A stretch of DNA of 64,000 nucleotides from Enterobacter asburiae (GTDB taxonomy: Bacteria; Pseudomonadota; Gammaproteobacteria; Enterobacterales; Enterobacteriaceae): assembly GCF_007035645.1 (NCBI RefSeq), contig NZ_AP019632.1, forward strand, positions 1,612,001 to 1,676,000, given 5' to 3'. The notes below the pieces were generated by a model that did no database searches, was not told the origin of the DNA, and saw only the letters and a list, made by a program, of their open reading frames with translations. Numbering within the stretch: position 1 is the stretch's first letter; every line of letters starts with the position of its first letter. Of this stretch, positions 31,239 through 41,209 are shown in pieces. The position numbers and the translations under genes are program-made.

Positions 31239-32888
31239 CTAGCGCTGTGAACAACCCGCGCACTGTTTGTTCTGGATCTGCTGGAAGAAATCGTTGCCTT
31301 TGTCATCCACCAGGATAAACGCCGGGAAGTTCTCGACTTCAATTTTCCAGATGGCTTCCATTCCCAGCTCCGGATACGCGACGCATTCCAGGCTCTTAAT
31401 GCTGTTTTGCGCCAGCACCGCCGCCGGGCCGCCAATGCTGCCCAGGTAGAAGCCGCCGTGTTTATGGCAGGCGTCGGTTACCTGCTGGCTGCGGTTGCCT
31501 TTCGCCAGCATGATCATGCTCGCGCCGTGGGATTGCAGTAAGTCCACATACGAGTCCATACGGCCCGCCGTGGTCGGGCCGAGTGAGCCAGACGCGTAGC
31601 CTTCCGGCGTTTTGGCCGGGCCTGCGTAGTAGATCGGATGGTCTTTAACGTACTGCGGCAGCTCTTCACCGTTGTCGAGCAGCTCTTTCAGCTTCGCGTG
31701 GGCAATATCGCGCGCCACGATGATGGTCCCGTTCAGCGACAGGCGGGTAGAGACCGGGTGCGCGGAAAGCTGCGCCAGGATCTCCTTCATCGGCTTGTCC
31801 AGATTGATGCTCACCACGTCGCCTTCGCCCTGCTGGCGCAGTGATTCAGGAATATACTGACCCGGGTTGTGTTCCAGCTTCTCAATCCAGATCCCGTCGC
31901 GGTTGATCTTCGCTTTAATGTTGCGGTCTGCGGAGCAGGAGACGCCCATGCCGATTGGGCAGGAGGCGCCGTGGCGCGGCAGGCGGATCACGCGGATATC
32001 GTGGGCGAAGTATTTACCGCCGAACTGCGCGCCGAGGCCGAGGTTCTGCGCTTCCTGGAGCAGTTCCTGTTCGAGCTTAACGTCGCGGAACGCCTGGCCG
32101 TGTTCGTTACCTTCCGTCGGCAGCGCGTCGTAGTAGCGCGTGGAAGCGAGCTTCACGGTTTTCAGCGTGGCTTCCGCTGACGTACCGCCAATCACAAATG
32201 CGATATGGTAAGGCGGGCAGGCCGCAGTGCCCAGGGTGCGCATCTTCTCAACCAGGTAGTTTTTCAGCTTCGCCGGGGTGATCAGTGCTTTGGTTTCCTG
32301 ATAGAGGTAGGTTTTGTTGGCAGAGCCGCCGCCTTTTGCCATGCACAGGAATTTGTATTCGTCCCCGTCCACGCTGTAGAGATCGATCTGCGCGGGCAGG
32401 TTGGTGCCGGTATTCACCTCTTTATACATGTCCAGCGCCGCATTCTGCGAGTAGCGCAGGTTATCTTCAATGTAGGTGTTATACACCCCCTGGCTCAGCG
32501 CCGCTTCGTCACCGCCGCCGGTCCAGACGCGCTGGCCTTTTTTACCCATGATGATCGCGGTGCCGGTATCCTGGCAGGTTGGCAGCACGCCTTTTGCGGC
32601 AATTTCAGAGTTACGCAGGAACTGCAGGGCAACGTATTTGTCGTTCTGGCTGGCTTCCGGGTCGTTGAGAATGGCGGCAACCTGCTTCTGGTGAGAAGGA
32701 CGCAGCATAAACGCGGCATCGTGGAAGGCCTGCTGCGCCAGCAGGGTCAGGGCTTCCGGCTCCACTTTCAGCACTTCCTGACCGTCGAATTCGGCAACGG
32801 AGACGTGCTCTTTGGTCAGCAGGTAGTATTCGGTGTCGTCATGGGAAAGAGGGAAGGGGTTCTGGTAGAAAAACGGTTTATTTGACAT
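31239..32888 (-). CDS. fumB: Class I iron-sulfur fumarate hydratase, FumB/FumA type
   Basis: A 549-residue class I fumarase catalysing malate = fumarate + water, closely similar to E. coli FumB. The start chosen is ATG 32888 ([22 protein letters not shown]), matching FumB, with GGAG upstream. The [4Fe-4S] cysteines appear in [22 protein letters not shown] and the third conserved Cys in the middle region. In this class the enzyme is oxygen-sensitive and suits anaerobic use, where it runs malate to fumarate. It follows the antiporter gene by 55 nt on the same strand. The pairing mirrors E. coli dcuB-fumB and ttdT-ttdAB and points to malate or tartrate dissimilation feeding the fumarate reductase next door. 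Confidence 0.93.
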
Positions 32889-32943
32889 AGCGTATTGCTC
32901 CACAAAAATAAAACCGCCGGAGGAGAAGTCCGGCGGTCAGGAA

Positions 32944-38896: not shown

Positions 38897-39596
38897 GCAG
38901 GCCGGTCTGCTCCGGCTGGAGACGGTAGCGATACACCGGACGGCCGGTGGCGCCGTAGTGAATGCTGGTGAACAAAATGTTGATTTGCGCGAGCCAAATC
39001 AGGTACTTGCGGCAGGACACGCGCGAGATATTGACCGCGCTTGCCAGGTCATCGGTAGAAAATTCCGTCTCCGGGTGAGCGTCAATCCACTGGCAAATCG
39101 TGCGCAGCGTTTGCGGCGTTAACCCCTTCGGCAGCTTTTTACTGTCCGCCAGTTCCGGCGCCCCGCCGTGGATCAGCCGGTCGACGTCGGCCTGCTCATA
39201 ATACTGGTGCGAACCCATCAGGCTATGCTTTGCCTTCCAGCCGTTCAGCGCCTCTTCAAAGCGCGGAAACTGGAACGGCTTGATCAGATAATCCACTACG
39301 CCGTAGTGGATGGAGGTCTGGATCGTGGCGGCATCGGCAGCCGACGAGATCATAATCACATCGATCGGGCGACCGGATGCGCGAATAACGGGCAGCAAAT
39401 CCAGCCCATTATCCTGCTGCATATAGACATCCAGCAGCACCAGATCGACAGGCTGCCCGGGGTTATTAATGATGGCCTCGGCCTGGTTTAGCGTGGAGGC
39501 GACGCCGCAGCAGCTAAAACCATCAACACGGTTGACATACAGACGGTTGAGGTCGGCTACCATGGCGTCATCATCGACAATTAATACATTTATCAC
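38877..39596 (-). CDS. dcuR: C4-dicarboxylate response regulator DcuR
   Basis: A 239-residue CitB-family response regulator, strongly similar to E. coli DcuR. The N-terminal receiver has phospho-acceptor Asp56 (LVLLDVYMQ) and acidic pocket DDD at 8-10; the C-terminal DNA-binding domain includes ISRVSCRKYLIWL. E. coli DcuR activates dcuB, fumB, frd and dctA in response to fumarate, malate or tartrate. Here the regulator sits within the fumarate module rather than next to dcuB-fumB as in E. coli, so it very likely controls these genes. It overlaps dcuS by 4 nt (ATGA) and apbE by 20 nt. Confidence 0.95.
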   Translation of the reverse strand: MINVLIVDDDAMVADLNRLYVNRVDGFSCCGVASTLNQAEAIINNPGQPVDLVLLDVYMQQDNGLDLLPVIRASGRPIDVIMISSAADAATIQTSIHYGVVDYLIKPFQFPRFEEALNGWKAKHSLMGSHQYYEQADVDRLIHGGAPELADSKKLPKGLTPQTLRTICQWIDAHPETEFSTDDLASAVNISRVSCRKYLIWLAQINILFTSIHYGATGRPVYRYRLQPEQTGLLKQYCQ

Positions 39597-41209
39597 GCGA
39601 TATTCCTCTCGCTATCCCAGGGGATGTGAACAAAAAATTGGGTAAATACGCCTGGCTCAGACTCGACGCTGATATCGCCGCCGAGGTTCTGAATTTGCTG
39701 GCGAGCAAGGAACAGCCCAACGCCGCGGTTTTCACCTTTTGTTGAGAAGCCCTTTGTAAAAATAGCCTCCAGCTGAGCGGGTTCAATGCCGGGGCCATCG
39801 TCGCTGACTTCGCAGCTGAGCCAGCCATTCTGATAATGCAGCAGCAGGCCGATCTCACCTTCCTGCTGTCCTTCCATCGCGTCGAGCGCGTTTTCAATGA
39901 GGTTACCCAGCACGGTGATCAGCACCGCGACCTGCTCTTCGCTCGCGGTATCCGGTATCTGGCATTCATCCGCCAGCGTCAGGGTGACGCCCGCTTCTTT
40001 CGCCCGATTGATTTTACCCAGCAGGAACCCGGCAATCACCGGGGATTTTACCTTGCTCTGTATCGTGCCGATATCCGTCTGGTAATTATGTGCAGTCTGA
40101 ATGATGTACTCTTCCAGCTTGTCGTAGCGCTTCATGTGCAGCAGGCCCAGGATCACATGCAGTTTATTCATAAACTCGTGCGTGTGGCTGCGCAGGGCCT
40201 CGACGTAGTTAACCATGCCATCAATACGCTGCATCAGCTGGCTGATTTCCGTTTTATCACGGAAGGTGGTGATGGCGCCGATCACCCGATCCTGGCTTTT
40301 AACGGGCACCATGTTGCACAGCAATAGACGCCCGTTACAGCTGATCTCCTGATCCTGGCGCGCGACGCCCGTCTTTGAGACTTCGCGCAGGCTGGCCAGC
40401 AGGGGGGCGCTGGCATTTTCGGTCTGCTTGCCGGAAGGGAGAAGCAATATTTCTCTGGCGGTCTGGTTGATCATCGTCACGCGCCCGTGAATATCGACGG
40501 CCAGCACCCCCTCGCGAAGCGACTGCAGCATCGCCTGACGCTGTTCGAACAAGGCGGAAATTTCGTAAGGTTCGAGCCCGAACAGGATGCGTTTCAGTAC
40601 CCGCACCAGACCCCAAATCGCCATGGAGCTCATAAAAATACTGAATAAAATGGTCCAGACGGCGTTGAGCCGCCCGCGAGCGATCTGCTCTTCAACCTTT
40701 TTCAGGGAGATACCTACCGCCACCACGCCGATCTGCTCGTGCTGGCCGTCGTAGACTGGGGTGAAGACGCGAAGCGCTTCGGCGAGCGCACCCCGGTTTA
40801 CCGATACGTTCTCTTTGCCCTCAAGCGCGGGAGTTAAATCGTCACCGATAAAATGCAGCCCCAGCAGCGCCTCGTTCGGGTGAGAGTAGCGAATACCCCG
40901 CATATCGGTGACCACGGTGAACAGCAGATCGTTTCGTTTCGTCACCGCCTGGGCGATGGGCTGAATAATATTCTCCTGCGGTGCCTGCATCAGGCCGCGC
41001 TGGATCTCCGGGCTGTTGGCCAGCGTTCTGGCAATACCCAGAGCCGTATCTTTTACATCATCGCGGGTCGCCCGGGTGATTTGCACGGAGTAGAGCGCAA
41101 AGACCACCAGCAGCACAGAGGCAATAATCGCGCATACCATCAGCGTGACCAGGGTGTTCAGCTTCATGGGGCGCTTGCGCGTCGGAAGGAAAGGCTGCAA
41201 ATCGCTCAT
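39593..41209 (-). CDS. dcuS: C4-dicarboxylate sensor histidine kinase DcuS
   Basis: A 538-residue membrane sensor kinase colinear with E. coli DcuS. The start chosen is ATG 41209 (MSDLQPFLPTRKRPMKLNT) with GGAG 5 nt upstream. TM1 is at about residues 20-42, then a periplasmic PDC/Cache domain (FTVVTDMRGIRYSHPNEALLG), TM2 at about 180-205, a cytoplasmic PAS domain, the dimerisation/phospho-His segment LRSHTHEFMNKLHV and an ATPase domain with N box (NLIENALDA) and G boxes (DDGPGI, ENRGVGLFLA). It detects external C4-dicarboxylates and citrate in E. coli, usually together with the transporters DctA or DcuB. It is cotranscribed with dcuR. Confidence 0.95.
   Translation of the reverse strand: MSDLQPFLPTRKRPMKLNTLVTLMVCAIIASVLLVVFALYSVQITRATRDDVKDTALGIARTLANSPEIQRGLMQAPQENIIQPIAQAVTKRNDLLFTVVTDMRGIRYSHPNEALLGLHFIGDDLTPALEGKENVSVNRGALAEALRVFTPVYDGQHEQIGVVAVGISLKKVEEQIARGRLNAVWTILFSIFMSSMAIWGLVRVLKRILFGLEPYEISALFEQRQAMLQSLREGVLAVDIHGRVTMINQTAREILLLPSGKQTENASAPLLASLREVSKTGVARQDQEISCNGRLLLCNMVPVKSQDRVIGAITTFRDKTEISQLMQRIDGMVNYVEALRSHTHEFMNKLHVILGLLHMKRYDKLEEYIIQTAHNYQTDIGTIQSKVKSPVIAGFLLGKINRAKEAGVTLTLADECQIPDTASEEQVAVLITVLGNLIENALDAMEGQQEGEIGLLLHYQNGWLSCEVSDDGPGIEPAQLEAIFTKGFSTKGENRGVGLFLARQQIQNLGGDISVESEPGVFTQFFVHIPWDSERNIA

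Follow-up and report, generated by a model that had tools for sequence, protein, structure and literature searches.

Introduction

In Escherichia coli, the C4-dicarboxylate sensor kinase DcuS and the response regulator DcuR are encoded together with the transporter DcuB and the class I fumarase FumB in the order dcuS-dcuR-dcuB-fumB on one strand, and fumarate is reduced with the quinone-linked FrdABCD. The present analysis deals with a locus of Enterobacter asburiae at which DcuSR stands beside a predicted soluble NADH:fumarate reductase (FRD). The window, as the whole stretch of DNA analysed, comprised 64,000 nt (contig NZ_AP019632.1, positions 1,612,001-1,676,000), and the locus was found at window positions 31239-41215. 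It contains, in this order, the genes of a fumarase (minus strand), a DASS-family antiporter (minus), FRD (plus), the flavin transferase ApbE (plus), DcuR (minus) and DcuS (minus), with a divergent control region of 606 bp between DASS and FRD. The main result is a conserved tandem AACTAA element before frd, which is probably a DcuR operator.

The closest described enzyme is the NADH-dependent fumarate reductase of Klebsiella pneumoniae, which, according to an abstract of Bertsova (2020), is reportedly induced anaerobically by fumarate or malate. Articles are cited below by their accessible passages unless stated otherwise. A cytoplasmic flavin transferase was described as essential for the flavinylation of the soluble K. 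pneumoniae fumarate reductase (PMC12052999), and the NADH-dependent enzyme of this species was also cited in PMC11325843. The K. pneumoniae pair of KPK_2907 and ApbE resembles the pair analysed here in the D-x-x-T-G-A-T motif, the ApbE without signal peptide and the soluble fumarate reductase (PMC12052999, PMC4348036); no difference between the enzymes was found, the comparison being one by description, with sequence identity taken from other Klebsiella only. The enzyme core of the locus is therefore not new, since it matches the reported K. pneumoniae FRD/ApbE, and the initial annotation was right in naming this precedent. Shewanella Fcc3 and the urocanate reductase UrdA share the FAD domain and the catalytic residues with FRD, and UrdA also carries an ApbE-type FMN (PMC4348036). 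In contrast to both, FRD is without haem motif and signal peptide and would be fed by NADH via an OYE-like domain. A Gilliamella NADH-dependent Frd of the FRD type was proposed for fumarate fermentation, and no fumarate transporter genes were reported in the passages of that paper (PMC11325843), whereas a DASS antiporter is present here. Concerning the regulation, no link of DcuSR to this reductase was found in the accessible passages of the open-licence literature, nor any open-licence paper pairing DcuR with ApbE, and the term 'fumarate reductase' was absent from the main text of a K. pneumoniae DcuSR paper (PMC12772337).

Comparison with the dcuB locus of E. coli

All six genes were intact open reading frames (ORFs) on the strands given by the initial annotation, according to the ORF list of the window, and their names agreed with Pfam and NCBIfam profile searches; their contiguity was thus borne out. 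The bounds given earlier (31239..41209) were correct in gene content and too short at the end, as the DcuS ORF extends to 41215. The fumarase scored 1233 bits with PRK15391 (cut-off 1094) and 1205 bits with PRK15390 (FumA), both above the cut-off, and shared 88% identity with E. coli FumB as well as with the other class I fumarase of the genome. The DASS protein was 53%, 49% and 37% identical to E. coli TtdT (a tartrate:succinate antiporter), CitT and YbhI, respectively. Of its four solved relatives by sequence, two were chains of a bacterial DASS protein (6wu1 and 6wtw) and two were dicarboxylate transporters of plant plastids. Because its assignment is based on the identities to TtdT and CitT, succinate-type exchange is a prediction, as are the exact antiport substrates. 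E. coli ttdABT and citCDEFXGT are alike in that a DASS antiporter annotated as exchanging succinate stands beside a dehydratase or lyase, and they differ in substrate, in regulator and in having no linked reductase. DcuR was 69% identical to E. coli DcuR, with a nearly identical C-terminal helix-turn-helix region, and DcuS kept R107, H110, F120, R147, F149 and H349 of E. coli DcuS, which we take to be the residues of C4-dicarboxylate binding and the phosphorylated histidine.

The order dcuS-dcuR-dcuB-fumB was read in E. coli, which confirmed the contrast drawn by the initial annotation; here the arrangement is dcuS-dcuR-[frd-apbE on the opposite strand]-DASS-fum. Both clusters have in common the order of sensor, regulator, transporter and class I fumarase genes on one strand as well as an operator-like motif, whereas the DASS antiporter replaces DcuB and frd-apbE is inserted on the other strand. 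Where E. coli reduces fumarate with FrdABCD, a soluble NADH enzyme is encoded at the DcuSR locus, and no megablast match to frd was obtained in the E. coli genome collection. The E. asburiae genome (4.77 Mb) contained one DcuS above the cut-off, that of the locus, and two weaker DcuS-like kinases (351 and 309 bits, cut-off 520). Since this sole over-cut-off DcuS sits at the FRD locus, no E. coli-style dcuSR-dcuB-fumB cluster exists in the genome, and no DcuA/DcuB-family transporter stands beside DcuSR at the locus, the transporter there being DASS. Two DcuA/DcuB-family proteins (56% and 37% identical to E. coli DcuB) are encoded elsewhere; the gene of the former adjoins apparent ferritin-like genes, and 51 kb separate the dcuB-like gene from dcuS. 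The second of the two class I fumarase genes adjoins an apparent class II fumarase. FrdA followed by FrdB, apparently intact, was also readable elsewhere in the genome (the names FumC, ferritin and FrdB were given by reading translations, not by family search). Because frdA-frdB is present as well, the organism seems to possess a quinone-linked fumarate reductase to which the predicted NADH enzyme would be an addition, and this supports the earlier view of a quinone-independent alternative.

Tandem AACTAA element upstream of frd

The footprint alignment was made from 69 control regions (68 loci and the window), six loci consisting of a DASS-FRD pair only being left out. A block before frd was found in it, in which AACTAA-N15-AACTAA stands directly upstream of TTATATTAATA. 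The exact tandem pattern matched the window twice, once on the FRD side and once on the DASS side, against 0.01 matches expected. The repeat was then counted at spacing 14 or 15 and at a fixed interval upstream of FRD in 101 loci (loci and genomes carry L and G numbers, respectively); L016, L033, L040 and L064 (too little upstream sequence) and L070 were left out, and L053, L056 and L082 were kept apart (0, 4 and 2 mismatches, respectively). In the 78 DcuSR-linked upstream regions, many of which are close relatives and a few the same species twice, 0, 1, 2 and 3 mismatches were found in 50, 22, 5 and 1, respectively, i.e. two or fewer in 77/78, compared with one or fewer in 9/1560 and two or fewer in 87/1560 single-base shuffles. 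Exact repeats at spacing 14 were found in L134 and L135.

If the repeat is a DcuR operator, it should follow DcuSR and not the locus, and this prediction was tested with four complete loci whose genomes gave no DcuS match (G178, G135, G206 and the genome of L078; the best 14 candidates were scored in each of the first three and all 27 in the last). A perfect FNR box was present in 4/4 and the repeat in 0/4 (4, 4, 5 and 5 mismatches), and the FRD-side repeat as a mere marker of the locus was rejected on this result. In G131 and G205, with frd-apbE without DASS, fumarase and DcuSR (DcuSR being elsewhere in the genome), the repeat was exact in 2/2, and no FNR box was found at these two frd-apbE loci. 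All nine DASS-FRD-only paralogs had three or more mismatches. A Fisher test (P 1.3e-5; spacing 15 only, related loci taken as independent) was not relied on.

These four DcuS-less loci with complete fum-DASS-frd-apbE are L130, L132, L133 and L078. As the FNR box stays and the DcuR-type repeat is absent there, another C4 signal, or none, would act at these loci.

A related motif at E. coli dcuB

A matrix of 47 bp was derived from 67 FRD-side sites only (about 9.5 effective). When 240 kb of E. coli K-12 was scanned with the spacer one base shorter, the dcuR-dcuB region scored 35.9 and the next best 12.9. The match lies 379-424 bp before the dcuB start, which would agree with the DcuR footprint that we take to be about 360-400 bp upstream of E. 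coli dcuB. Six more dcuB-type loci scored 26.6-33.6, each as the top match of its region, although the seven dcuB-type regions with the site are themselves related. Controls were lower: sequence shuffles (200 each) reached at most 20.3 and reversed matrices at most 10.7, and permuted matrices were also lower. FRD loci outside the matrix (L056, L129, L134 and L135) scored 23.5-37.4. With a simple AACTAA scan nothing convincing was seen at E. coli dcuB, the site being visible only with the full matrix, and no clear block for the motif emerged when eight dcuB upstream regions, trimmed to 420 bp, were aligned. Ten loci with DcuSR in other settings (L112-L119, L121 and L122) scored 20.5 or less, without clear pattern. 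As to orientation, the dcuB-side motif (L103:8746-9315) faces away from dcuB, toward the 3' end of dcuR, and the FRD-side motif faces frd.

Since the tandem AACTAA element tracks the presence of DcuSR and the matrix from FRD promoters singles out the E. coli dcuR-dcuB region, the element is probably, as a putative assignment, the DcuR operator. Several results weigh against this assignment. The exact AACTAA pattern had 4 matches genome-wide versus 3 for a backward control, so that the pattern alone proves nothing and its conservation is what counts. The DASS-side site scored at least 13 in only 15/67 DcuSR-linked loci; scores of 13.8 and 16.3 were obtained close to the canonical position in 2/9 DASS-FRD-only paralogs, of which one belongs to a DcuS-less genome; the repeat is present in Brenneria L053 without linked DcuSR (at the locus only); and one Tolumonas locus had 4 mismatches by the simple count, though 28.2 by matrix. 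The eighth dcuB-type region (L120) scored 17.2 and the best permuted matrix 17.4; as it was thus no better than a permuted matrix, the site was counted in 7/8 dcuB-type regions. The absence of DcuS in 3/4 DcuS-less genomes depends on the best 14 candidates per genome. Relatedness may also explain part of the contrast between DcuS and the repeat, because three of the four DcuS-less loci belong to a diverged clade and the remaining one has a long branch: in an FRD tree made by a quick method, with some forks open, L132 and the pair L078 and L130 were placed in a clade with DcuSR-linked relatives, and L133 stood apart on a long branch. The DcuSR-linked relatives in that clade (L069, L071, L076, L079, L080, L081 and L129) keep the site with 1-2 mismatches. 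No site was found by the matrix before the dcuB-like gene of this genome or at E. coli frdA or dctA, both presumably DcuR targets. The DcuR footprint at LEE1 of enterohaemorrhagic E. coli (TTATCTCACATAATTTAT, PMC10636207) is without obvious resemblance to the motif in the passage available.

These results bear on an alternative in which the tandem AACTAA serves another regulator or is a promoter or UP-element, DcuSR being linked by chance or only regulating itself. The AT-richness of the element and its position immediately before a conserved -10-like stretch, the lack of the motif at E. coli frdA/dctA, the weak traces in two DASS-FRD-only paralogs and the fact that no DcuR footprint of this sequence was found in the literature passages would suit it. 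We consider it quite unlikely, as the element is absent at four complete DcuS-less loci and kept in two genomes with unlinked DcuSR, the motif is common to 7/8 dcuR-dcuB regions, and the DcuR helix-turn-helix is almost identical between both systems. With the element as putative DcuR operator, the DcuSR switch looks like the one that E. coli uses for a different transporter.

FNR box and the probable DASS-fumarase promoter

The perfect FNR box that had been claimed for the divergent control region was exact, and it was the sole exact match in the window. Allowing one mismatch, 3 matches were seen versus 1.4 expected, so that the window count alone is unsurprising. The box was present in 69/75 DASS-FRD control regions (74 loci and the window), in 66 exactly and in 3 with one mismatch, and the 6 regions without it were the six DASS-FRD-only loci of that set; a chance match was rejected on this conservation. 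The pattern TAT-N-N-TGC, with its start 28 bp ahead of the FNR box, was found in 68/80 DcuSR-linked or unclassified box-bearing regions and in 0/4 DcuS-less ones, and this spacing between -10-like element and FNR box would fit a class II FNR promoter for DASS-fum. A dyad in the stretch that separates the FNR box from the frd operator was partly conserved: AATAACCAC/GTGGTTATT, with two or fewer mismatches, was found in 54/82 linked or unclassified regions, 2/9 paralogs and 0/4 DcuS-less regions. The conserved FNR box and the DcuR-type operator-like element together support the joint control by FNR and DcuSR that had been proposed from the sequence; this inference on control is well supported at sequence level, and the control logic is the new part of the analysis.

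Predicted fumarate reductase and flavin transferase

In the Pfam search, FRD was a single chain of Oxidored_FMN (OYE-like FMN domain), FMN_bind (the ApbE target) and FAD_binding_2 (the FAD domain of fumarate reductases), a trio presumably the same as in KPK_2907. The flavinylation motif D441-A-I-T-G-A-T447 lies in the FMN_bind domain. H719, S731, E732, R735, R756, H859 and R899 of FRD align with H365, T377, E378, R381, R402, H504 and R544 of Fcc3, respectively (Fcc3 numbering; the Fcc3 residues have catalytic roles), and these seven residues were invariant across 100 aligned relatives. No CXXCH haem motif was seen by eye in the FRD translation, although NCBIfam labels the protein flavocytochrome c. 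The best solved relatives were fumarate reductases (flavocytochrome c3), and urocanate reductase ranked behind them. By reading, the N-terminus of the locus ApbE has neither a hydrophobic stretch nor a lipobox, unlike the other ApbE of the genome, which starts like a lipoprotein (MDMTFLRASFLAMLFFLTAC...). Neither an FrdB iron-sulphur nor an FrdC/FrdD membrane subunit was found among the cluster ORFs by Pfam. The closest FRD in the search was that of E. asburiae TN152 (99% identity), and Klebsiella orthologues with the same gene order were found in K. grimontii (L036) and K. michiganensis (L038) with 87% FRD identity. These features support the prediction that FRD is a soluble, quinone-independent NADH:fumarate reductase.

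FRD might instead reduce another unsaturated acid (urocanate, acrylate, mesaconate or cinnamate), with fumarase and DcuSR as mere neighbours, given that FAD_binding_2-type relatives include urocanate and vinylphenol reductases and that class I fumarases can be promiscuous toward mesaconate (PMC4682846). This is very improbable: the catalytic positions of fumarate reductases, including the Glu (E378), are kept in the 100 aligned relatives, the nearest solved relatives are fumarate reductases with urocanate reductase behind, fumarase, C4 sensor and dicarboxylate antiporter are constantly alongside, and the Klebsiella homologue is described as a fumarate reductase in the passages available.

Synteny and distribution

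The best 80 of at least 549 confirmed candidate loci were taken as the synteny sample, with gene presence determined by tblastn (>60% coverage). All six genes were present together in 60/80 loci, Klebsiella included, and the arrangement is not specific to one strain. Nine loci were incomplete solely through contig ends (L016, L032, L033, L040, L048, L052, L055, L064 and L066), ApbE was in two pieces in L031, L053 and L078 were without DcuSR at the locus, and L056 was cut on the left side, with no DcuS match. Six loci were DASS-FRD pairs only (L068, L072-L075 and L077), and in L082 FRD was present, with the 10 kb upstream free of other cluster genes and the contig ending directly downstream. 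Apart from these 20 loci, FRD itself was in two pieces in L070. The DASS-FRD-only pairs (the same six with L131, L136 and L137) lack fumarase, ApbE, DcuSR and a canonical FNR box, and such a pair is a second copy in several genomes (Rahnella, Ewingella, Winslowiella and Pantoea); these paralogs may have another substrate and may be flavinylated by the ApbE of the first copy.

One genome per genus was surveyed for 99 Enterobacteriaceae, many of them reduced symbionts (E<=1e-250 for FRD and E<=1e-120 for DcuS). FRD was found in 20/99 and DcuS in 31/99 genomes, both in 16, and they were linked in 14 of these 16. Among the 31 genomes with DcuS, it was linked to FRD in 14, to DcuB in 7, to neither in 10 and to both in 0. 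In 3 of the 10 neither-linked genomes DcuSR had a distantly related DASS as neighbour (34-35% in tblastn), and in 1 a close one (79%). L114, L121 and L122, from three genera, have DcuSR beside a different DASS, about 36% identical to that of the locus, and DcuSR may have been paired with DASS on more than one occasion. A broader set of 120 genomes from the order contained FRD in 8 and DcuS in 5 with the same E limits. No DcuS was found in three small-genome FRD matches, one genus outside Enterobacteriaceae, for which Gilliamella is a guess.

A gene for a TcuC-like carrier adjoins the locus here and in 10/80 loci, all of Enterobacter or Lelliottia, and also the DcuS-less survey locus of G135. 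The locus could on this account, and with the DASS identities to TtdT (53%) and CitT (49%), serve mainly L-tartrate or citrate fermentation, FRD disposing of the resulting fumarate. Such a role is unlikely, as neither tartrate dehydratase nor citrate lyase is among the cluster ORFs, the regulator is DcuS and not of the CitA/DpiB or TtdR type, and the carrier gene is confined to the loci just named.

Features of the window

The features are listed in Table 1. The MurQ-like gene is divergent from dcuS and is kept there in many genera; it diverges much faster than FRD, e.g. 46-64% where FRD is 79-89%, and scored below the TIGR00274 cut-off. In the left flank the TcuC-like MFS carrier gene overlaps that of a ModA-like binding protein, with a LysR gene beside. 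The two tRNA-Asn(GTT) genes are on the same strand, 7.4 kb apart, and could mark an integration site or the edge of an island. On the right, the flank is similar to the yedJ-dcm-dsrA region of E. coli, where no FRD locus is annotated.

Table 1. Coordinates of the genes, control elements and flanking features in the window
Feature	Position	Strand	Basis or remark
Class I [4Fe-4S] fumarase (FumA/FumB type), malate <-> fumarate	31239..32888	-	NCBIfam PRK15391, PRK15390; likely start ATG at 32888, 5 codons inside the listed ORF
DASS-family dicarboxylate antiporter (TtdT/CitT-like)	32944..34452	-	TIGR00785 490 bits, cut-off 198.6; likely start ATG at 34452
Candidate second DcuR site, DASS-proximal tandem AACTAA-N14-AACTAA	34506..34531	-	Exact repeat; matrix score 25.6
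-10-like element of the DASS-fumarase promoter, TATATTGC on the plus strand	34614..34621	-	Conserved TAT-N-N-TGC
FNR box TTGATCGCGATCAA	34642..34655		Exact palindrome, TTGAT-N4-ATCAA
Partly conserved dyad AATAACCAC-N-GTGGTTATT	34692..34721		Footprint alignment; between FNR box and frd operator
Probable DcuR operator of frd	34921..34967	+	Core AACTAA-N15-AACTAA at 34931-34957
Conserved TTATATTAATA, likely -10 of the frd promoter (presumed role)	34966..34976	+	Among the most conserved intergenic columns
FRD, predicted soluble NADH:fumarate reductase, 926 aa	35059..37839	+	Pfam domains, flavinylation motif, catalytic residues
ApbE flavin transferase, cytoplasmic	37934..38896	+	PF02424 270 bits; signal peptide absent by reading
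DcuR response regulator	38877..39596	-	PRK10430 443 bits, cut-off 262
DcuS sensor kinase	39593..41215	-	PRK11086 (DcuS/MalK subfamily) 823 bits, cut-off 520
tRNA-Asn(GTT)	8275-8350
tRNA-Asn(GTT)	15653-15728
TcuC-like carrier, ModA-like binding protein	28858-30956
MurQ-like (N-acetylmuramic acid 6-phosphate etherase)	41302-42237
HD/YedJ-like and Dcm-like genes	43739-45923		Named by reading translations
DsrA small RNA	51397-51483

Proposed function

The genes and the FNR box reported by the initial annotation were confirmed, and its interpretation held for gene content, synteny, the contrast with E. coli and the Klebsiella precedent; its label of respiration did not. No membrane potential is generated by a soluble NADH:fumarate reductase, so that redox sink or fumarate fermentation describes the locus better. 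On the genes and control elements taken together, the locus is very probably a sink for NADH that works anaerobically and is induced by C4-dicarboxylates. Malate, fumarate or a comparable C4 acid from outside would enter via the DASS antiporter against succinate, malate would be converted to fumarate by the class I fumarase, and fumarate would be reduced to succinate by FRD in the cytoplasm, with the succinate leaving through the antiporter. Electrons would pass from NADH to the FMN of the OYE domain, then to the covalent FMN (on Thr447, attached by the neighbouring ApbE) and finally to FAD. FNR would activate the DASS-fumarase operon without oxygen, and in response to C4 acids DcuS/DcuR would activate frd-apbE, and in some species DASS-fum as well, via the tandem AACTAA operator. 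The gain would be NAD+ for glycolysis and possibly an exchange-driven uptake.

A wider generalisation is offered tentatively and is itself doubtful. DcuSR could be an exchangeable control module with a single type of operator (two AACTAA-like half-sites at a distance of 20-21 bp), wired either to DcuB-FumB and quinone-linked fumarate respiration or to DASS-fumarase-FRD and a quinone-free NADH sink, never to both per cluster, and in the latter DASS would replace DctA/DcuB as the co-sensor which sets DcuS ligand-responsive.

The locus is a real and conserved one of known enzymes; its chemistry is ordinary and the regulation is the useful part. It suggests a role of the C4-dicarboxylate sensor studied in E. 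coli for enterobacteria without the E. coli arrangement, and it offers a concrete candidate operator for DcuR. It is also relevant to how other genomes are read, for example that of the succinate producer Enterobacter sp. LU1, whose listed genes include dcuSR and a fumarase of what is apparently the same cluster. In the passages of PMC7402333, the LU1 fumarase has the tag 18775 and dcuR/dcuS the tags 18795 and 18800, and only four FrdABCD-like genes (07980-07995) are listed as fumarate reductase. The LU1 locus tags leave room for three genes between fumarase 18775 and dcuR 18795, and these would be DASS, FRD and ApbE. A quinone-free fumarate sink of this kind matters for the succinate yield and the anaerobic NADH balance.

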